This document shows positions 19,165 to 28,046 of a stretch of 64,000 nt of DNA, piece after piece; position 1 is the stretch's first letter, and every line of letters begins with the position of its first letter. The position numbers and the translations under genes are program-made. The DNA is taken from contig JACQON010000013.1 of NCBI GenBank assembly GCA_016202545.1, positions 1-64,000 of the forward strand, written 5' to 3'. A model generated the notes under the pieces. That model was not told the DNA's origin. It worked only from the letters and a program-made list of their open reading frames with translations, and searched no databases. Origin of the DNA: Chloroflexota bacterium (GTDB lineage Bacteria; Chloroflexota; Dehalococcoidia; Dehalococcoidales; JACQON01).

Positions 19165-19261
19165 GGGAGCGGATAGGTTCCGGTGGGCTTCGCGGACTTC
19201 AAATCCGTCGGGGGGCATGAAAAATGTCTTCGGTGGGTTCGACTCCCATACGCTCCCGCCA
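19165..19261 (+). tRNA. selC: tRNA-Sec (anticodon UCA)
   Basis: A 97-nt selenocysteine tRNA. The 5' arm GGGAGCG (19165-19171) pairs with CGCTCCC (19251-19257), followed by discriminator G and an encoded CCA (19259-19261). The anticodon loop CTTCAAA (19197-19203) carries TCA and reads UGA. A long variable arm lies between about 19208 and 19232, and the T loop is TTCGACT (19238-19244) on a 5-bp stem. The oversized variable arm and UCA anticodon distinguish it from other tRNAs. SelA, SelB and SelD genes follow within 6 kb. Confidence 0.95.
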
Positions 19262-19304
19262 GACTCTCCTAACCTCTTCTGCCTAATCATAGGGATGCAG
19301 TCTA

Positions 19305-19330
19305 CTTTCATGACAGCTTGAAGTTTTATA
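19305..19330 (+). repeat. 26-bp direct repeat, copy 1
   Basis: This copy starts 44 bp after tRNA-Sec and matches 19595-19620 at 24 of 26 positions (core GACAGCTTGAAGTT). The two copies bracket the small gene at 19355-19564. Confidence 0.6.
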
Positions 19331-19354
19331 AAACTCCGCTTGACTGAAATCAAA

Positions 19355-19564
19355 CTACATCGTCTTCTTTTTTTCAAAAAGTAAGAAATGATAGAAACCA
19401 GTCTGGTAAACTGGGTGGGGAGATGACAAGCAGGTTACCTGGTATGTATGAAGATGCCAACCATCTTTCTCATAGTCTTCTATTATTGGGGTAACTCCAG
19501 TGATTTCTGCAGGGTAACCAACTTTGTGGTCGCCTCTCGTCATAACACATTTGTATTCTTTCAA
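19355..19564 (-). CDS. small DUF4177-like protein
   Basis: A 69-aa soluble protein starting at TTG 19564, which is supported by GGAGG 9 nt upstream. The pattern (YKCVM near the start, a central EKDGWHLHTYQ, and a C-terminal FLLFEKKK) resembles DUF4177 proteins, whose function is unknown. The gene is AT-rich and is flanked by 26-bp direct repeats, directly beside tRNA-Sec. Confidence 0.55.
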   Translation of the reverse strand: MKEYKCVMTRGDHKVGYPAEITGVTPIIEDYEKDGWHLHTYQVTCLSSPHPVYQTGFYHFLLFEKKKTM

Positions 19565-19594
19565 TTTCTTCTACCTCCATTATTAATTATTCAG

Positions 19595-19620
19595 CTTTCA
19601 GGACAGCTTGAAGTTCTATA
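19595..19620 (+). repeat. 26-bp direct repeat, copy 2
   Basis: Second copy of the repeat at 19305-19330, located just upstream of the small DUF4177-like gene. Confidence 0.6.
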
Positions 19621-19637
19621 GGGCACCGCCGGGTTAG

Positions 19638-20081
19638 TTAACACCAATTAAGGAAAATAAACAGACCGAAGATAATGGTTGCTAGTCCATATAGCCAAAT
19701 GTAAAGCGTCCGAACGTAAAAAGGGTTATATAAAGGTGAGAGTTCTTGCTCAAACGGAATATAGTTTTTCAGCTGCTCTTTGTTTTTCTCTCCAGTCAAC
19801 TCGCCTACAAGCCATAATGCCCTTCGTCTGTGGTCATAAGCGGTTTTTCTTGTCCGCCAACAAAGAAAAAGCCCCATTAGAGAAAGAATGGTCAAGAACA
19901 AGAAGACGAAAATATGCCGTTCCTCATTATTATGTGTAGTAGCTACAAAAGCGATTACGGCAACGACTAGTAAAGCATAAAAATTCGTGAAAGAAAGCCG
20001 TAAATTCTCTATGTGTCTTATCTGTTCCCAATTCTGACGAAACGCTTCCAACTTTGTTTGGTCTACAATATTGCTATTCAT
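19638..20081 (-). CDS. two-TM membrane protein of unknown function
   Basis: A 147-aa protein with hydrophobic segments at about residues 30-50, 56-75 and 122-143, the first two separated by a short polar loop (THNNEERH), plus a charged cytoplasmic stretch between them and the last helix. ATG 20081 is chosen because AAAGGAGA lies about 10 nt upstream. The sequence is AT-rich relative to the window. No family recognised with confidence; it vaguely resembles small bacterial membrane proteins of mobile islets. The 269 bp upstream (20082-20350) hold nothing recognisable. Confidence 0.6.
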   Translation of the reverse strand: MNSNIVDQTKLEAFRQNWEQIRHIENLRLSFTNFYALLVVAVIAFVATTHNNEERHIFVFLFLTILSLMGLFLCWRTRKTAYDHRRRALWLVGELTGEKNKEQLKNYIPFEQELSPLYNPFYVRTLYIWLYGLATIIFGLFIFLNWC

Positions 20082-20350
20082 GTAGTCACATCTCCTTTTC
20101 CCCATCCTTTTTGTTTCTATGTTTATTTCACGTGTAGTGACGACAGTATAGTGACTTCATACGGTGTTGTCAAAATTGTGTAAACGAAGTGGGCTTGGGC
20201 GGGGAAAGGTAATAGCGGGTTATTGTTCGGTGCCCATGAAATTTTCAATTCTTGAGCCTAACTCAACAACCGATTATAAACGGCGCTAATCGGGCAAGGG
20301 AGTCTGGTAATAGTCGCTTAACACAGCACCCGCCGTAACCACACGTTGGC

Positions 20351-20719
20351 TTACCCCTCTTCAATCTCTCGCAGCCGGGCGTCACTGATGCCGAAGTGGT
20401 GGGCAATCTCGTGCCTCAGCGTCTTCTTTATCACGGCGTAGACTTCGTCGGCGTTACGGCACCTGGCCTCGATAGGCTTTTGAAAGATGGTTATTTTGTC
20501 TGGCAGTATCATCCCGTAATGGCTGCCTCGCCTGGTTTGAGGGACTCCCTCATAAAGCCCGAGCAGTGTCTTCCCCCGTCCCAGTCCCGTTCTCTTAAGC
20601 TCAGACGGGGTCGGCTCCTCTCTGACAACGACATCGGCATTTTCCAGCCTGGTCAGAAATTCCTCGGGCAAGTCCTCAACCGCCCTGGCAACTAACCGGG
20701 CGAACTCTTCCTGGTTCAT
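20351..20719 (-). CDS. zincin-like metallopeptidase family protein
   Basis: A 122-aa member of the small metallopeptidase family (PF06262), cytoplasmic, with the HExxH motif in LRHEIAHHFGISD near residue 104, suggesting zinc binding. Start MNQEEFARLVARAVEDLP is typical of the family. It lies 23 bp downstream of the C_GCAxxG_C_C protein gene on the same strand, so the two are probably co-transcribed. Physiological substrate unknown. Confidence 0.85.
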   Translation of the reverse strand: MNQEEFARLVARAVEDLPEEFLTRLENADVVVREEPTPSELKRTGLGRGKTLLGLYEGVPQTRRGSHYGMILPDKITIFQKPIEARCRNADEVYAVIKKTLRHEIAHHFGISDARLREIEEG

Positions 20720-20742
20720 GGCATCAATGCAGCATCCATTCG

Positions 20743-21279
20743 TTATCCCTTATCCGGTTTTTCTCGCAGCTTTTCTATTTCCTCGGCGGCGACCTGTGCC
20801 GCTAGCCCACAGACCGCAGGACAACCGGAATCGCTGTGCCCGCCGGCGTCAACGAAAGCCTGGTATTCCGCCTTATTCGCCAGGTCGAAGTGTCTGCCGT
20901 AAATCATCTCCTGGATATGCCAGCACAGATTGTCCCGCAAATCCTTCTTTAAGCCAAACCGCTTCTTCAACTCTTCCCTGAACCTGGCGCTGACTCTTAC
21001 GGCAGCGTCCATGGCCGCCTTATTAGCCCCGGTGTCCTCGATGCTTGCCCGCCCCATTTCCAGCCCTAATGCCGAAAGGGCGCCCACGATGGCTCCGCAG
21101 GTCTCTCCCTGCCGGGCAATCCCGCCGGAAAGCACGCTGGCGGCCTTGAACGAGTCTTTATTGCCAATCCCGAACTCTTCCTGAAGAGCGCCCAGGACGC
21201 ACTGCGCGCATCCCCCGTAATCCCTCTCATACCGGTGAGCTTTTTCCTTAGCCCTGTCTATCCGCTCCATGCTTTGCAT
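20743..21279 (-). CDS. C_GCAxxG_C_C family redox protein
   Basis: A 178-aa protein with the family pattern: YGGCAQCVLG near residue 24, GETCGAIVGAL near 60, CWHI near 118 and a terminal CPAVCG. These regularly spaced cysteines suggest a metal or redox site, but function in the family is not established. The start ATG at 21279 has GTGAGGGG upstream; ATG 21270 is an alternative. It lies 50 bp from selB on the same strand and could be read through from the selAB transcript. Confidence 0.8.
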   Translation of the reverse strand: MQSMERIDRAKEKAHRYERDYGGCAQCVLGALQEEFGIGNKDSFKAASVLSGGIARQGETCGAIVGALSALGLEMGRASIEDTGANKAAMDAAVRVSARFREELKKRFGLKKDLRDNLCWHIQEMIYGRHFDLANKAEYQAFVDAGGHSDSGCPAVCGLAAQVAAEEIEKLREKPDKG

Positions 21280-21329
21280 TCTACCATCCCCTCACTTTCT
21301 ATTGACGATTTTCTCCTCATTCAAAATGC

Positions 21330-23198
21330 CTAGTACAGCACCCGCTCATCTCCCACGCGGCGGGTGATTTTCTTGCCGTCCAGGTGCTCCAGGAACGCCT
21401 GGGCATACTTCCGGCTGGTGTTGAACAGGTCCCGCACTTCGGCCAGGGTTATCCTGCCCCGCGCCTTGATATGCTCCGTGACCTTTTCCGCCATCTCGTC
21501 ATAAGCCGAGGCTGAGAAGACCACGCTGTCGCTCACCTTCACCACCTGGCGCCGCTCGATGAGCAGGTTGAGCAAATCAGGCCCGGGGATGAGGTCGGCA
21601 GGCGGAGCGTAGGGGCTTTGACGCAGGGAGTCGAGGAAAGCGTCCATGCTCGCCTGCTGCGCCGGTGTAAGCTGCACCCGGTGGGACGGCAGGCGAACGG
21701 CCATACCCTGCTCAACCAGTACGCCTTTATCAATTAGCTTCTGGAGCACGGCCGGGGCATATGTCCCCAGCTTCAGCTTGCTGCGTACCTCCTCCCTGGG
21801 CATGCCGGCGCGGGCCGGGAACTTCTGATGGTAGTCCCCCACCAGGCTGGCAGCCCGCTGGCACAGTTTCCGCCAGCCGGACCCGGTCAGCAGCAGGCCC
21901 TGCGCGCCTTCACCTACCATTGCTTCGACTTTGCTCAGTACAAGCACCACTTTCCCCTGCCGGACAAGGGCTTCCACCAGCGACTGGAGTTGAGCGGCGG
22001 GAAGATTGCTCTCAGCCGACAGCGCCGATAGCTCTACCGGCTGCTTCGCCTCCAGCAAGGTCAGAATCACCTGCTCGGGGGTGCCCTCTTCCTTGACCTT
22101 GAGGCTCTCAATGACCGCCGTGTGGAGGCGGCGCAGCCGCCTGGCGTGGGCCTCGACTACCCTGCCGCCACCCAGCGTCTCTGTGGACGAGCGGATAATA
22201 AAATGGTCGCCGTTGACCACGGCCACGGGCTTACCCAGTAATAACTGCGCCCAGGTGACTCCTCCCGGCTGAAGCTCGTTTCCCTCCAGCAGACGGACCC
22301 TGGCCGCAGCCTCATCCGCCCCGGCGTAGAAGTTGACGGTGGTATTATGCCGTAGCGTGCGGCGGGCAATCGAACGGAGCCTGGCCGTCACCAGGGTAGT
22401 CGGCGCCAGCCAGCCGGGCGAGGCGAGCACATCACCGCGCCGCAACTGGGCAGTGGCGACGCCCACCAGGTTGGCAGCCACCCGGCTTCCCGGCGTGGCA
22501 GTATCGATGCGGGACTTGTGCACCTGCAACCCCCGCAGCCGCGCCGTCAGCCCGGCAGGGACAATCTCCACCGTCTGCCCCACCGTCAGTGAGCCATCTA
22601 CCAGCGTGCCGGTCACTACCGTACCAGCGCCGGCGATGGTGAACACCCGGTCTATGGCCAGCCGTGGCCGCCCCAGGTCGCTCTTCGGCTGTAGAGTGGC
22701 GAGAAGTGCATCGATGGCCGAGACCAGCCCGGGCAGGCCCTCGCCGGTCACCGCCGAGACAGCCAGGACCGGCGCGCCGGACAGGGCGGTCCGGGAAACC
22801 AGCCCGTCTACCTCCGTCCTGACCAGGTCCAACCACTCGTCATCCACCAGGTCTGTCTTGGTGATGACCACGACCCCCTTTTGCAGCTCCAGCAAGTCCA
22901 GGATGGCCAGGTGCTCCCTGGTCTGCGGCATCACCCCTTCGTTGGCGGCAACCACCAGCAGGGCCAGGTCAACGCCTCCCACACCGGCCAGCATGTTCTT
23001 GATAAAGCGCTCATGTCCGGGGACATCAACAATTCCCACCTCCCGCCCGCTGGGAAGCCTCAGCCAGGCGAAGCCCAGGTCTATGGTCATCCCCCGCTCC
23101 TTCTCCTCGCGGAGACGGTCAGGGTCTATGCCGGTCAAAGCACGCACCAGGGCTGATTTTCCGTGGTCGGTGTGGCCGGCAGTGCCCACGACAAACAT
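21330..23198 (-). CDS. selB: selenocysteine-specific elongation factor SelB
   Basis: A 622-aa translational GTPase that delivers Sec-tRNA to recoded UGA codons by binding the SECIS hairpin. G1 is GTAGHTDHGKS, the switch region GMTIDLGF, G3 DVPGHERFIKN, G4 TKTD. Beta-barrel domains follow, then C-terminal winged helices (from about residue 450, ending in ITRRVGDERVLY) that recognise mRNA. ATG 23198 is preferred because GGGAGG lies 5 nt upstream; the ATG 12 nt earlier overlaps that site. selA ends 63 bp upstream, giving a selA-selB operon. Confidence 0.96.
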   Translation of the reverse strand: MFVVGTAGHTDHGKSALVRALTGIDPDRLREEKERGMTIDLGFAWLRLPSGREVGIVDVPGHERFIKNMLAGVGGVDLALLVVAANEGVMPQTREHLAILDLLELQKGVVVITKTDLVDDEWLDLVRTEVDGLVSRTALSGAPVLAVSAVTGEGLPGLVSAIDALLATLQPKSDLGRPRLAIDRVFTIAGAGTVVTGTLVDGSLTVGQTVEIVPAGLTARLRGLQVHKSRIDTATPGSRVAANLVGVATAQLRRGDVLASPGWLAPTTLVTARLRSIARRTLRHNTTVNFYAGADEAAARVRLLEGNELQPGGVTWAQLLLGKPVAVVNGDHFIIRSSTETLGGGRVVEAHARRLRRLHTAVIESLKVKEEGTPEQVILTLLEAKQPVELSALSAESNLPAAQLQSLVEALVRQGKVVLVLSKVEAMVGEGAQGLLLTGSGWRKLCQRAASLVGDYHQKFPARAGMPREEVRSKLKLGTYAPAVLQKLIDKGVLVEQGMAVRLPSHRVQLTPAQQASMDAFLDSLRQSPYAPPADLIPGPDLLNLLIERRQVVKVSDSVVFSASAYDEMAEKVTEHIKARGRITLAEVRDLFNTSRKYAQAFLEHLDGKKITRRVGDERVLY

Positions 23199-23261
23199 GC
23201 TGCCTCCCATAAGTGGCGCTGAGATTGTTTCTGTTAAGCGCTCTCAGCGGTGTCGTTGCTG

Positions 23262-24650
23262 TCAGACGGATTCCAGTCCGGTCCCGATTCGGGAAAGGGC
23301 TTCAAGCACAATCCGGTCGTCCTCGGGGAGGACGGAGCGGGGGTCGAGAAGCAGCATGTTGCCGCTGACCCGTCCGATGATGGGAAATTCGCCGGAGACC
23401 AGCCTTTGGTTCACAAGCTGGGTGGCGTTCTTTCCCTTTTTGCCCGCCTGGCCGATGGCGACCAGCTTTGTCGGCAGGACAGCGCCCGGCAGGCTGCCGC
23501 CGCCGACCATGGTCTCCCCGTCAATCACACTGGCCAGTTCGCCGCCAGCCTCGGCCCAGCTCCTGGCCCGGCGGTCGATTTCCGCCAGCGGCGCTGATAT
23601 CATCCGCCACACCGGTATCTTGCTTATCGCCTCGCCCTTGAGATAGTGAATCAAGGTGGCCGCCAGGCCGGCCAGCCTCGCCTTATCAATCCTCACCACG
23701 CGCGCCAGGGAATGGTTTTTCAGCCGGTCAACAAGCTCCTTGCTGCCCACGACAACCCCCGCCTGGGGGCCGCCCAGGAGCTTATCGCCGGAGGCAAAGA
23801 CCAGCCCGGCACCGGCAGCGACGCTCTCCTGGAGCATCGGCTCCGGGTCAAGCCCGTAAGCGGTGGTATCCAGAAGACAGCCGCTGCCCAGGTCGTCAAG
23901 TACCGGCAGCCCGTACCGCCTGCCCAGTGCCACCAACTCGGCCAGGCTGACCTGCTGGGTGAAGCCTATCAGCTTGAAGTTGCTGGCATGGACACGCATC
24001 AGCGCCGCCGTCCTGGGAGTGATGGCCTGCTCATAGTCGGAAACATAGGTGTAGTTGGCGGTGCCCACCTCCACCAGCCTGGCCCCGCTCTGGCGCATCA
24101 CATCAGGGATGCGGAAGCCCCCACCGATTTCTACAGCCTGGCCCCTGGAGACGATTACCTCCCGCTTCTTGGCCAGCGCCGCCAGGGCCAGCAGCAGAGC
24201 GGAGGCATTGTTATTTACCGCCAGGGCCGCCTCAGCCCCGGTCAACTGGCACAAGCCCAGCTCAACGTGAGCCTGGCGGGTGCCCCTGGCCCGGCTATCA
24301 ACCTCCATCTCCAGGTTGCAGTAGCCGCTGGCGACGGCAGCCATGGCCGCGGTGGCCTCCTTGCTGAGCGGGGCACGGCCCAGGTTGGTATGGAGTATCA
24401 CCCCGGTGGCATTTATCACCGGCCGCAGGCTGGAAGTAAACAGGGCATACACCTGTGCGCGCACGGACTCCACTATGTTATCCATTGACGGACAGGGCTG
24501 ACCAGCGGCTATGGAACGACGCTGGCGTTCAAGGTGCTGCCTCACCACGTCTACCAGAAGGGTGCGCGGATAGGTATCTTCGAGTCGCTTCAGGCGCTCG
24601 TCGGAGACGACCCTGTCCACGCTGGGAAGATGACGAAGCTCGCTAGTCAT
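23262..24650 (-). CDS. selA: L-seryl-tRNA(Sec) selenium transferase SelA
   Basis: A 462-aa PLP enzyme converting Ser-tRNA-Sec to Sec-tRNA-Sec with selenophosphate. It has the family N-terminal domain (LRHLPSVDRVV) that grips the tRNA, and the PLP-binding Lys290 in SGDKLLGGPQAG. Length matches bacterial SelA. It is divergent from selD with 136 bp between start codons. A reverse-strand TAGAAT about 10 bp upstream of the ATG may be its -10. Confidence 0.96.
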   Translation of the reverse strand: MTSELRHLPSVDRVVSDERLKRLEDTYPRTLLVDVVRQHLERQRRSIAAGQPCPSMDNIVESVRAQVYALFTSSLRPVINATGVILHTNLGRAPLSKEATAAMAAVASGYCNLEMEVDSRARGTRQAHVELGLCQLTGAEAALAVNNNASALLLALAALAKKREVIVSRGQAVEIGGGFRIPDVMRQSGARLVEVGTANYTYVSDYEQAITPRTAALMRVHASNFKLIGFTQQVSLAELVALGRRYGLPVLDDLGSGCLLDTTAYGLDPEPMLQESVAAGAGLVFASGDKLLGGPQAGVVVGSKELVDRLKNHSLARVVRIDKARLAGLAATLIHYLKGEAISKIPVWRMISAPLAEIDRRARSWAEAGGELASVIDGETMVGGGSLPGAVLPTKLVAIGQAGKKGKNATQLVNQRLVSGEFPIIGRVSGNMLLLDPRSVLPEDDRIVLEALSRIGTGLESV

Positions 24651-24716
24651 AGTATCCTGGATATTCTAACATGCGCCGCTCATTTTCAAAAGCTGCCCTG
24701 TGCAGTGTCCAGGGCT

Positions 24717-24745
24717 TTGCTTTCCACTAGCAGTATTGCTACAAT
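24717..24745 (+). promoter_or_regulatory. selD promoter and leader hairpin
   Basis: TTGCTT (24717-24722) and TACAAT (24740-24745) are spaced 17 bp. Downstream in the leader (24752-24768) a 7-bp hairpin AAGCTGG/CCAGCTT with a CAT loop precedes the ribosome binding site GGAGGAG. Confidence 0.55.
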
Positions 24746-24786
24746 GAAGGCGAAGCTGGCATCCAGCTTTAGTATACGGAGGAGCC

Positions 24787-25836
24787 ATGAGAAAAGAGGC
24801 AAATCCTCGCCTGACCGAGTTGGTGCGCGGGGCCGGCTGAGCTTCCAAGATGGGTCCGGGTGACCTGAACCAAGCTCTATGTGACCTGCCTGAGATGTCA
24901 GACCCCAACCTTATCCTGGGCCTGGCAAGCCCTGACGATGCCGGCGTGTATAAATTGACCGATGACCTGGCCATCATCCAGACCATCGATTACTTCACGC
25001 CCATCGTTGATGACCCGTACGACTTCGGTCAGATTGCCGCCGCCAATTCCCTCAGCGATGTCTACGCCAAGGGCGGCAGACCGCTTACGGCGATGAACGT
25101 GGTCTGTTTCCCCACCAAGACCCTGGACATCTCGGTGCTGAAGACCATCCTCAGGGGCGGCGTGGACAAGATGATGGAGGCGGGGGTACTGCTGGTAGGA
25201 GGGCACAGCGTGGATGACGTTGAGCTCAAATATGGCCTTTCCGTCACCGGCGTCATACACCCCGACCGGCTGGTGACCAGCGCCGGGGCCAGGCCGGGGG
25301 ACAAACTGATACTGACCAAGCCTCTGGGGACCGGCATTATCAGCACCGCCTTAAAGGGAGGCGCAGCCGATGGCGGACTGGTGGCCAAAATCACCAGGTA
25401 TATGGCCACCTTAAACAAGAAAGCCTCGGAGCTAATGCAGGAGGTGGGGGTCAACGCCTGCACTGACGTCACCGGCTTCGGTCTCCTCGGCCATGCCGCC
25501 CAGCTTGCCGAAAACAGCCGGGCGAGCATGGAGCTCCGCTTTTCGTCAGTCCCTTACTTCCCCGAAGTGGCCGAGTTCTCCCGGAGAGGGCTATGCCCGG
25601 CCGGGCTGTCACGGAACAAGGATTTTTACTCCCCCAGAGTAAGGTTTGCCGTTGACCTCCCGGAGCACCTGCGAGATACCCTGTTTGACCCACAGACTTC
25701 CGGCGGACTGCTTATCAGCGTGGCTGCGGCCAAAGCCGACCTCCTACTCAGCAAGCTGCGCCAGGCGGGGATAGCCGATGCCGCCATCATTGGGGAGATA
25801 GGCAGCCAGCCTGCGGGCGCCATTACCGTAACGTAG
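24787..25836 (+). CDS. selD: selenide, water dikinase SelD, itself a selenoprotein (in-frame UGA)
   Basis: SelD makes selenophosphate from selenide and ATP, the selenium donor for SelA. The frame from ATG 24787 (GGAGGAG upstream) reads MRKEANPRLTELVRGAG, then TGA at 24838-24840, then ASKMGPGDL. The UGA sits exactly at the catalytic Cys/Sec of the family (GAG-C/U-xxK), so it encodes Sec18, and the conserved Lys21 follows. Decoding yields 349 aa, normal for SelD; starting after the UGA would delete the active site. Later AIRS-type motifs include DPYDFGQIAAANSLSD and VLLVGGHSVDD. The needed tRNA-Sec, SelA and SelB genes are adjacent. Confidence 0.95.
24851..24867 (+). promoter_or_regulatory. candidate bacterial SECIS hairpin in selD
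   Basis: Starting 10-12 nt after the UGA, GGTC pairs with GACC around a CGGGT loop (24853-24865), extendable by two G-U pairs. A short stem with a GU-containing apical loop just 3' of the UGA is what SelB recognises in bacteria. The stem is short, so confidence is limited. Confidence 0.45.
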
Positions 25837-25890: not shown

Positions 25891-25920
25891 TTGACAACTG
25901 AAGACCTCCTGTGGTTTAAT
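25891..25920 (+). promoter_or_regulatory. strong sigma70-type promoter for the ncRNA
   Basis: A consensus TTGACA (25891-25896), an 18-bp spacer and TTTAAT (25915-25920, five of six consensus bases). No protein gene follows on this strand, so the promoter drives the structured RNA starting near 25927. Confidence 0.7.
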
Positions 25921-25926
25921 AATATA

Positions 25927-26179
25927 GACGCCCGGGCGGAAGACTACTGCAGGAGGTGTGATATGAAGCTTCAGGCAGTATTGGGGGTGTGGCAGGTTGA
26001 TAGTTGACGCCCTGCGATGTGCAGGGCACCCCGAGACTCGAACCTGGCTCGTGAAGATGTAGAAGGGGCAGTCTTAGGGAATGAAAAAGGCCCACTACTC
26101 CGGTAGTGATTACCGATAGTGAGCCGGGTCGAGAAGGTAAGTTAAAGAGAGCACCTGACAAGGTGCTCTCTTCTTGTTT
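25927..26179 (+). ncRNA. stand-alone structured RNA of unknown family (~250 nt)
   Basis: The segment runs from a near-consensus promoter to a rho-independent terminator and has no credible ORF. Helices visible: GCCCTGC/GCAGGGC (26009-26015 with 26021-26027, 5-nt loop), GGGGT 25984-25988 with ACCCC 26028-26032 stacking outside it, a long stem pairing 26037-26050 with 26121-26133 (13 pairs, one bulged A, one U-G), and inside it CACTAC-UCCG-GUAGUG (26093-26108) capped by a UNCG tetraloop. It lacks hallmarks of tmRNA, RNase P RNA, SRP RNA and 6S RNA. It lies between selD and the convergent fix operon. Confidence 0.65.
26145..26179 (+). terminator. rho-independent terminator of the ncRNA
   Basis: Perfect 12-bp stem AAGAGAGCACCT/AGGTGCTCTCTT with a GACA loop, followed by CTTGTTT. 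Confidence 0.85.
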
Positions 26180-26285: not shown

Positions 26286-26411
26286 GCGAGAACGCCCATC
26301 CCCTTCAGGGTGAACCCTTCAGAGCGAGCCTTCAGGACGAGCCCTTCTGGGTGAACCCCTGACCCCCTTCCCGACGGGAAGGGGGAATTAAGTGAATCCG
26401 CAAATAGGAGT
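26286..26411. repeat. degenerate fragment related to the MITE-like repeat
   Basis: It contains CGCCCATC at the left, a hairpin CCCCTTCCCGACGGGAAGGGG and GAATTAAGTGAATC, recalling parts of the elements at 13480 and 38438, interspersed with short CTTCAGGGTGAACCC-like repeats (also seen at 38596-38620). No gene is seen between 26180 and 26460. Confidence 0.45.
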
Positions 26412-26460: not shown

Positions 26461-26742
26461 CTAGCCGAACTTATGGCTGACTCCATAGCCACCCTTGGGA
26501 AAGCGCCACTCAATGTTCAGGTGAGGGCAGGCGATGCGGCAGGAGCCGCACTCCAGACACCCCTCATGACGGACGCTGATGCGGTCCACTTCCAGGCGAT
26601 AGACATTCCCCGGGCACAGGTACAGGCAGGACTGTTGGAGGCATTTCTTAAGGCAGATTTCGCCGTCGATTATCCGCAAATGGCTTTCCTCATCCACTTT
26701 GAAACGGTCTAAGAACAGCTTGTCTTCTATCTTTACCGTCAT
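26461..26742 (-). CDS. fixX: FixX-like ferredoxin
   Basis: A 93-aa ferredoxin-like protein that transfers electrons with FixC. Cysteine motifs: CLKKCLQQSCLYLCPG (first half) and CLECGSCRIACPHLNIEW. The C-terminal tail PKGGYGVSHKFG is typical of FixX. ATG 26742 follows GGAGGG at 7 nt and overlaps the fixC stop codon by ATGA, indicating translational coupling. It is the last gene of the etfB-etfA-fixC-fixX operon. Confidence 0.92.
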   Translation of the reverse strand: MTVKIEDKLFLDRFKVDEESHLRIIDGEICLKKCLQQSCLYLCPGNVYRLEVDRISVRHEGCLECGSCRIACPHLNIEWRFPKGGYGVSHKFG

Positions 26743-28046
26743 TTTACTGCCCTCCATCCCTGCCACAAAAGGCGAGCCAGCCTGAAGATGGACATCTTTT
26801 CGCCGCGGAAATTCTGCATTATCAATTTCTGCTTCTGCTTCTTGCCGACGCCGTTGACGGTGAGCATCTCCCTGGCGGCAAAGGAGGCGGCACGGGGCAT
26901 CTCGTTGAATAGCTCTTTATGGTGGTGCATGAACCTGCCGAACCTCCGATATTTCTTCATATCCTTGAGGACGTAGGACTCGGCCAGCCTCTCGCCATAC
27001 CTGGATAGAGCCTTCCTGGAGCAGTCATCCCGCCCAAGCGCTTCGATGATGGTCTCGGCAGCCATGCGGCCAGAAGCCATGGCCAGGTTGTTCCCCTCCC
27101 GGTGCAGGGCGTTGAACAGCATGGCTGAATCTCCGGCAATGAGATAGCCATCCCCGCAAAGCCGGGGGATAGCGTCATAGCCTCCCTCCGCCAGCCAGTG
27201 GGCGATGTATTCCAGTGACTTACCGCCGGAGATGAGCGGGGCTACCATGGGATGCTGCTTAAACTCCTCTATCAGCTCATAGGGCTTGATTTTAGTTGCG
27301 GCAAAATCGGCCAGGTTGGCCCCCACGGACAGGGACAGCGAATTGCGGTTGGTGTAGAGGGCGGCTACGCCGTCCATCCCGCCGGTAACTCCGCCCATTA
27401 TCTCGGCGGTGACCCCGTCTATGCCGGAGACGCCGAAACGCTGCTCAATAACGGCAGCGGGCAAGTCGATGAGCTCTTTAACTGCCAGGGCCACCTGTTC
27501 CGGCTTAGGCTCAAGGCGGAAGCCGGTACGGACAGCCAGGGGCGAATTGACGCCGTCGGCCAGAAGGGTAATCCTGGCCCGGACCTCGCCTTCCGCCCTG
27601 CCAGTAGCCACCCCGGTCACGGCGCCACGGCTGTCTCTGAGCAGGTCAACTACCACGGTAGCGGGGACAACCAGCGCCCCTTTCTTCTGCGCCTGCTCAG
27701 CGTACCAGCGGTCGAATTTGGCCCTGAGCACGGTGAAGGCATTGTGTTTTCTCTCGGTGCCAAGGGCAGCATCTCGATAGCCGACGCTGAAACCGCTATC
27801 CCGGGAAAGGTACCATATCCTGGACTCGATGATGTTGCGCTCGATGGGGCATTTGCGCTCAGCGAAGTCAGGGAGTATCCGGGCCAGGTCATAGCCGTAG
27901 AGCACGGCACCGGACAGGTTCTTAGCCCCGGGATATTCCCCCCGCTCAAAAACGATGGTCTTTACGCCAGCATCGGCGAGGATACAGGCGGCAGATATGC
28001 CAGCAGGCCCGGCGCCAACTATAGCGACATCGAAGGCCGCCTTCAT
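26739..28046 (-). CDS. fixC: FixC, electron transfer flavoprotein-quinone oxidoreductase
   Basis: A 435-aa FAD-dependent membrane-associated oxidoreductase carrying electrons from the flavoprotein FixAB toward quinone. The N-terminal dinucleotide-binding motif is VGAGPAGISAACILADAG (about residues 9-26), followed by the FAD signature FERGEYPGAKNLSG. A conserved GDSAMLFNALHREG comes later. Its start overlaps the etfA stop by 4 bp, so FixB, FixC and FixX are coupled. Confidence 0.94.
   Translation of the reverse strand: MKAAFDVAIVGAGPAGISAACILADAGVKTIVFERGEYPGAKNLSGAVLYGYDLARILPDFAERKCPIERNIIESRIWYLSRDSGFSVGYRDAALGTERKHNAFTVLRAKFDRWYAEQAQKKGALVVPATVVVDLLRDSRGAVTGVATGRAEGEVRARITLLADGVNSPLAVRTGFRLEPKPEQVALAVKELIDLPAAVIEQRFGVSGIDGVTAEIMGGVTGGMDGVAALYTNRNSLSLSVGANLADFAATKIKPYELIEEFKQHPMVAPLISGGKSLEYIAHWLAEGGYDAIPRLCGDGYLIAGDSAMLFNALHREGNNLAMASGRMAAETIIEALGRDDCSRKALSRYGERLAESYVLKDMKKYRRFGRFMHHHKELFNEMPRAASFAAREMLTVNGVGKKQKQKLIMQNFRGEKMSIFRLARLLWQGWRAVK

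Follow-up and report, generated by a model that had tools for sequence, protein, structure and literature searches.

What occupies the gap between selD and fixX in this Chloroflexota genome: a non-coding structured RNA, a small message, or both at once? The DNA analyzed here, referred to as the window, is a 64,000-nt stretch of contig JACQON010000013.1, and the segment in question (25891–26179) lies in the gap between selD (+ strand, ending at 25836) and fixX (− strand, 26461–26766). An initial annotation had read it as a probable undescribed structured RNA of about 250 nt that carried no ORF.

A predicted transcription unit between selD and fixX

A starting RNA model was built from 11 sequences and the homologues it retrieved were assembled into a 79-sequence alignment. 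The following features were assigned to the unit (window coordinates, strand, description and basis):

25891–25896, +, −35 element TTGACA (sequence and homologue conservation)
25915–25920, +, −10 element TTTAAT, spacer of 18 (sequence and homologues)
25952–25958, +, Shine-Dalgarno sequence GGAGGTG (every position conserved in ≥95% of 79 homologues)
25963–26007, +, upstream ORF (uORF) of 14 codons plus stop, MKLQAVLGVWQVDS (peptide in homologues; codon-level selection)
26009–26027, +, helix H1, hairpin GCCCTGC-GATGT-GCAGGGC, 7 nt past the Asp13 codon (covariation, spacing, fold)
26037–26050, +, 5′ strand of helix H2, the long-range closing helix (covariation, fold)
26121–26134, +, 3′ strand of helix H2 (covariation, fold)
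26066–26093, +, helix H3, variable internal hairpin pairing GGGC 26066–26069 with GCCC 26090–26093 (covariation; window position read from the fold)
26101–26115, +, helix H4, hairpin CGGTAGTGATTACCG (covariation, fold)
26145–26179, +, intrinsic terminator, 12-pair stem at 26145–26172 followed by a T-rich tail (sequence; homologues)

The near-consensus promoter proposed earlier is borne out by the two hexamers with their spacing of 18 and by the homologues, since an exact TTGACA lies upstream in 92% of the 79 sequences compared with 3.6% in shuffles, mostly at 17 nt from the −10 element. Transcription would start near 25927. The terminator, described as perfect, likewise held, and by a crude test a terminator also lies downstream in 58 of the 79 homologues. 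The resulting RNA gene is about 250 nt long, carries its own promoter and its own terminator, and is single-copy in its 1.74-Mb genome. Between it and fixX, four tandem copies of a 13–14-nt unit (CCCTTCAGGGTGAA...) are found at 26301–26358.

On the other side of the RNA, the window contains a compact selenocysteine locus (19165–25836), whose gene names were assigned by sequence reading:

19165–19257, +, tRNA-Sec
21330–23210, −, selB-like gene (sequence reading)
23262–24650, −, selA-like gene (sequence reading)
24787–25836, +, selD (TGA read as Sec)

The selD gene itself appears to encode a selenoprotein (MRKEANPRLTELVRGAGUASKMGPGD...), with an in-frame TGA at 24838–24840. If this TGA is read as Sec, the gene starts at 24787, and the start at 24850 given in the mechanical ORF list is too late.

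A conserved 14-codon ORF under codon-level selection

The statement that the segment holds no ORF does not stand: a conserved and selected 14-codon ORF occupies 25963–26007, served by the GGAGGTG ribosome-binding site. In the first DNA search, TTGACA, a Shine-Dalgarno site and a short ORF were already common to all homologues once these were correctly oriented, and the homologous peptide mostly reads M(K/R)L(H/Q)xxxGVWQVD-x-stop. Among 78 distinct uORFs, 62% of the single-nucleotide codon differences are synonymous, against 22% expected, and in codons 8–13 synonymous single-base differences outnumber non-synonymous ones by 6481 to 1411. Codon 9 encodes Val in all 78 while using all four codons (GTA 30, GTG 18, GTT 17, GTC 13). 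On this codon-level evidence the peptide is under purifying selection, and the strongest conservation in the whole RNA is that of this translated-looking 14-codon ORF, which is presumably translated.

Codon 15 is a stop in 55 of the 78 uORFs, with all three kinds represented (TGA 33, TAA 14, TAG 8); otherwise it is a sense codon (TGG in 8, and others), so that about 30% of the main-set uORFs have no stop there. The residue following (W/R)QVD is S in 35, R in 14 and K in 8 of the 78. W10 is missing in 18, and about 10 carry R-Q-V-D. Variant peptides include GRWQ(V/I)D in family f127 and GVLQVD in family f58, and four homologues (L056, L058, L181, L182) end in GVW(L/F)FP(S/N/I)-stop in place of GVWQVDS-stop while retaining the RNA domain.

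A covarying multi-helix fold

The consensus order is Shine-Dalgarno site, uORF, H1, the long-range H2 closing over H3 and H4, and terminator. That the segment forms a structured RNA was upheld by two lines: folded alone, the RNA of the window reaches a stability that none of 200 shuffles matches (z = −4.1), and covariation among homologues, the check that had been proposed for it, exceeds all 500 shuffles on every measure. In the 79-sequence alignment, 36 of 38 pairs carry compensatory changes with both sides changed, double-change cells number 371 against 101 in shuffles, and the paired fraction is 90%, falling to 35–47% when the structure is slid along the alignment. The same helices were recovered in 24 phylum-level sequences outside model building, with 155 double-change cells versus 55, in an alignment that was fitted to the model and thereby favours structure.

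Left without its promoter, the RNA of the window folds into H1, H2 and H4 with probabilities mostly of 0.83–1.0. H1 shows double changes in seven of its eight pairs and pairing probabilities of 0.83–0.92; H2 has compensatory changes in all 14 pairs and a probability of 0.89 for the eight pairs tested. H3, the variable hairpin, has double changes in 6/6 outer and 3/3 inner model pairs. In H4, six of seven pairs show double changes, and with the promoter left out five of the six tested pairs have probabilities of 0.94–1.0, the innermost reaching 0.44. Two helices named in the initial annotation are not part of this fold. Its 13-pair 5′ stem pairs GACCUCCUGUGG, the −35/−10 spacer (25897–25914), with the Shine-Dalgarno region; because transcription probably starts downstream of this spacer, at ~25927, the stem would be absent from the RNA. 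Its UNCG-capped hairpin (CACTAC-TCCG-GTAGTG) competes with H4 (26101–26115), the helix that the homologues support.

Distribution within Chloroflexota and comparison with known RNA families

In the first DNA search, 10 of 60 genomes from the order yielded homologues. With the RNA models, whose strict filters make the genome counts lower bounds, the RNA was detected in at least 84 of the 156 genomes of the order (model R1, two of them marginal), at least 75 of the 393 genomes sampled in the class (R1) and at least 71 of the 400 sampled across the phylum (core model R3). The RNA thus occurs in about half of the genomes of its order and in other Chloroflexota classes. Family f9, represented by finished genomes of 1.4–2.1 Mb, gave no match; four of these finished genomes, used as negatives under loose filters, also gave none, the best hit reaching 16 bits (E 0.02).

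When 84,980 species genomes of bacteria and archaea were scanned for the exact pattern, 45 stretches matched; 44 of them are in records whose titles name Chloroflexi, Chloroflexota, Dehalococcoidia or ranks below it, and the remaining one is titled Deltaproteobacteria bin.571, and its contig matches the same-order genome G067. An origin in a mobile element, phage or plasmid was rejected, since most genomes have a single strong copy and there was no match in plasmid or phage records; nor was the exact pattern present in IMG/VR viral contigs. Genome G222, from outside the order, holds four matches, three of which we read as paralogous copies (L194, L258, L259) with diverged peptides (GVWQVDS, CLWQVDR, GVWQVEK).

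Searching Rfam 15 (4227 models) yielded nothing at the gathering cut-off for the RNA of the window or for 14 homologous loci, and at E ≤ 10 the RNA of the window gave nothing meaningful, with chance matches on the terminator only. The view that it is not tmRNA, SRP RNA, RNase P RNA or 6S RNA agrees with our searches. The genome has its own tmRNA elsewhere (RF00023; G000:C28:35200-35552, 164 bits), as do all 10 genomes tested, and its own RNase P RNA (RF00010; G000:C32:3578-3936). SRP RNA (RF00169) was located elsewhere in four genomes that also carry the uORF RNA, and the small-SRP model, which covers that form only, found none in the source genome G000. For 6S RNA (RF00013) there was no match in the source genome at E ≤ 10, the positive controls being detected. 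In the literature, the peptide motif GVWQVD appeared in no paper found, and the titles and abstracts on small RNAs and leader peptides of Chloroflexi or Dehalococcoidia describe no such RNA. Of the original reading, the undescribed structured RNA of about 250 nt therefore survives on the lack of an Rfam match and the strong covariation, whereas its purely non-coding character gives way to the 14-codon ORF. Two outcomes that had been named in advance as counting against it, a confident Rfam hit and a lack of covariation, did not occur. Judged from the sequences compared, it is almost certain that the RNA is real, is conserved, stands alone and carries a uORF under selection.

A fixed distance between the peptide end and H1

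The end of the Asp13 codon lies 7 nt from the first base of H1 in 77 of the 79 homologues, in 23 of the 24 phylum-set sequences, which are mostly from outside the class, and in 17 of 18 sequences from other families of the class. In the phylum set, by comparison, the peptide has between 6 and 15 residues ahead of GVWQVD. An element that is read at the peptidyl transferase centre would be expected to look like this, with its end fixed and its start variable.

If Asp13 occupied the P site, the first base of H1 would be at +11, counted from the start of the P-site codon. On bacterial ribosomes, a stem-loop that begins at +12 interferes with tRNA binding to the A site and causes pausing (PMC8861025, PMC7282821). 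ErmBL, whose arrest motif is RNVDK, halts the ribosome when Asp is in the P site, Lys or Arg being preferred in the A site (PMC4935803). The position of H1 and the ErmBL-like residues are unrelated features that point to the same codon, which argues for a pause, although the ErmBL resemblance spans three to four residues and may be due to chance. From this geometry and the analogy with ErmBL, the uORF probably pauses ribosomes at its end. Against such a pause speak the roughly 30% of uORFs without a stop at codon 15, the four GVW(L/F)FP peptides and the absence of W10 from 18 of 78.

Gene context and variants preceding genes

Among the 77 main-set loci with the full RNA, 45 have their next gene on the same strand and 32 on the opposite one; the corresponding numbers in the phylum set (24 loci) are 10 and 14. 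The 47 co-directional downstream neighbours are spread over 47 Pfam families, with none in common; the commonest is a rhomboid gene (8/47), probably through shared descent. The mixed strands and the lack of a shared downstream family indicate that the RNA stands alone. The earlier claim that no gene lies downstream is thus sustained, both at the window, where fixX is on the opposite strand, and across the RNA family, which has no conserved downstream gene. The argument against a riboswitch that followed from it is supported family-wide, although a few lineages place a version with the short ORF and hairpin before genes.

These variants take several forms. A few genera of the order have extra short copies (uORF and hairpin, no H2–H4) directly before genes, in which the Asp–H1 spacing and the stop are relaxed. 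About 14 of 15 weak uORF+H1 copies precede genes with apparent signal peptides, as judged by eye, and some of the genes after short copies are protease-like (Peptidase_A4, just below the cut-off, and Matrixin). L043, L044, L052 and L053 are repeated secreted-protein operons with up to four uORF copies in 11 kb, in which a protein ending in ...GWNDRAS(S/P)IS or similar is followed directly by the uORF and hairpin and then by another signal-peptide gene. In family f58 (L246, L254; genomes G207, G174), a uORF encoding MRKLNIHL(V/L)(F/Y)GVLQVD..., a short hairpin and a terminator lie directly upstream of a SIR2-like gene, possibly as an attenuator form. The uORF–hairpin module may accordingly be used in cis in some lineages.

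Discussion

The computational analysis establishes a promoter–uORF–H1–H2/H3/H4–terminator unit, selection on its peptide, covariation in its RNA, a fixed geometry between the two and no conserved downstream gene. As a predicted stand-alone transcript combining a conserved ORF with conserved structure, it has the makeup of a dual-function small RNA, and GVWQVD before a near-fixed stop, behind a variable N-terminus, is the pattern expected of an arrest peptide of the ErmBL/TnaC type. We propose that it is a dual-function, stand-alone small RNA of Chloroflexota. Ribosomes would load at the strong Shine-Dalgarno site and translate the 14-codon uORF, and the nascent GVWQVD chain, together with H1 located 7 nt past the Asp13 codon, would pause or arrest them when Asp13 occupies the P site and codon 14 the A site, or one step further on, at the stop codon. 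The held ribosome would cover the base of H1, and the hold would couple translation to the folding, lifetime or partner binding of the structured 3′ domain (H2–H4), which would act in trans. That the pause controls a trans-acting 3′ domain is a tentative proposal, to which we give somewhat less than an even chance, and the shortened uORF+H1 copies before secreted-protein genes fit control in cis better than action in trans.

Other explanations account for parts of the same evidence. The unit could be a minimal mRNA in which the released 14-residue peptide is the product (a signal, inhibitor or cofactor) and H1–H4 with the terminator form a protective 3′ UTR, as purifying selection on the peptide and a transcript standing alone between its own promoter and terminator would suggest; yet conservation is centred on GVWQVD at the C-terminus, whose distance from H1 is fixed, the N-terminus varies in length, the ORF can extend past codon 15, and 36 of 38 covarying pairs give the 3′ domain an architecture beyond the needs of a protective tail. 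We consider this reading unlikely. Did the uORF instead serve only to load ribosomes near the 5′ end, protecting a base-pairing regulatory sRNA against decay, one would expect the stand-alone gene, the single main copy in most genomes and the conserved unpaired positions, but protection alone needs neither a conserved peptide nor an exact 7-nt spacing, and we regard this as very unlikely.

Control in cis, with the position of the ribosome on the uORF setting terminator formation and hence read-through into the next gene, has the trp-type anatomy (uORF, hairpins, terminator) in its favour, as well as the f58 arrangement directly before the SIR2-like gene (L246, L254), the rhomboid gene next in 8 of 47 co-directional cases and the uORF+H1 version before apparent signal-peptide genes in about 14 of 15 weak copies. 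At 32 of the 77 main-set loci and 14 of the 24 in the phylum set, fixX at the window included, the next gene nevertheless runs in the opposite direction, and the 47 downstream proteins have no common family. Furthermore, no covariation links the uORF codons to the H1 arm, and their mean duplex energy (−7.7 kcal/mol) is no better than that with swapped arms (−7.6 kcal/mol), leaving the mutually exclusive pairing of an attenuator unsupported. Having found neither a conserved regulated downstream gene nor such pairing between uORF and H1 arm, we rejected a trp-type attenuator, and transcription attenuation in cis is quite unlikely for the family. The nearby selA, selB, selD and tRNA-Sec genes, together with a UGA followed at once by a hairpin, raise a further reading, in which the UGA of the uORF would encode selenocysteine and H1 would serve as a bacterial SECIS element. 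It is contradicted by TAA and TAG at the same codon 15, with all three stop kinds in the phylum set too; Cys homologues are not dominant, no frame is conserved past codon 15, and its probability is negligible.

Our proposal of a dual-function RNA with a ribosome pause can be set beside several characterized systems. Drug-dependent leaders of the ErmBL type share a short uORF, critical residues right before the stall, an adjacent RNA hairpin and a basic or small residue after the motif xxVD (PMC4935803), but ErmBL needs a macrolide and controls a downstream resistance gene, while the Chloroflexota RNA stands alone with a conserved multi-helix 3′ domain. The tryptophan-sensing leader TnaC is similarly short, has essential Trp and Asp residues and arrests at the end of its ORF beside the stop (PMC8429421); its residue spacing is W12-D16-P24, compared with W10-D13-stop15 in the Chloroflexota uORF, and it controls the tna operon by blocking Rho, whereas no operon lies downstream here. 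In Sinorhizobium meliloti, rnTrpL is likewise a small terminated RNA encoding a 14-residue, Trp-containing peptide, peTrpL, and both the RNA and the peptide act in trans (PMC7298713). Unlike the Chloroflexota RNA, which has its own promoter, a Shine-Dalgarno site, a different peptide and structure and no amino-acid operon, rnTrpL begins at the ATG and represents the attenuated trpE(G) leader. The mRNA stem-loops that stimulate frameshifting or pausing, such as those of dnaX and HIV, also place a hairpin at the mRNA tunnel entry, starting at about +11/+12 from the P-site codon (PMC7282821, PMC8861025), but the Chloroflexota RNA lacks a slippery sequence or conserved extended frame.

Leader peptides, hairpins and terminated small RNAs are each known; their combination on the scale of a phylum without a regulated gene is not known to us. 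A bolder reading, which we hold to be rather doubtful, is that the RNA represents a new class: a phylum-wide arrest RNA without a regulated gene, in which a ribosome is captured on a 14-codon message, the nascent chain and the entry hairpin sense translation and the 3′ domain reports in trans. The features of translation that such an RNA might sense possibly include elongation, release, a drug or a metabolite.

The RNA gene is conserved across much of the phylum, has no Rfam model and is apparently undescribed in the papers searched. It looks non-coding, yet centres on a strictly selected peptide that ends 7 nt from a hairpin; before other intergenic RNAs that are structured, terminated and without an evident ORF are classed as non-coding, they should be examined for selection on codons. 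Should the pause prove real, the Chloroflexota uORF would encode an arrest peptide that functions with no gene downstream.
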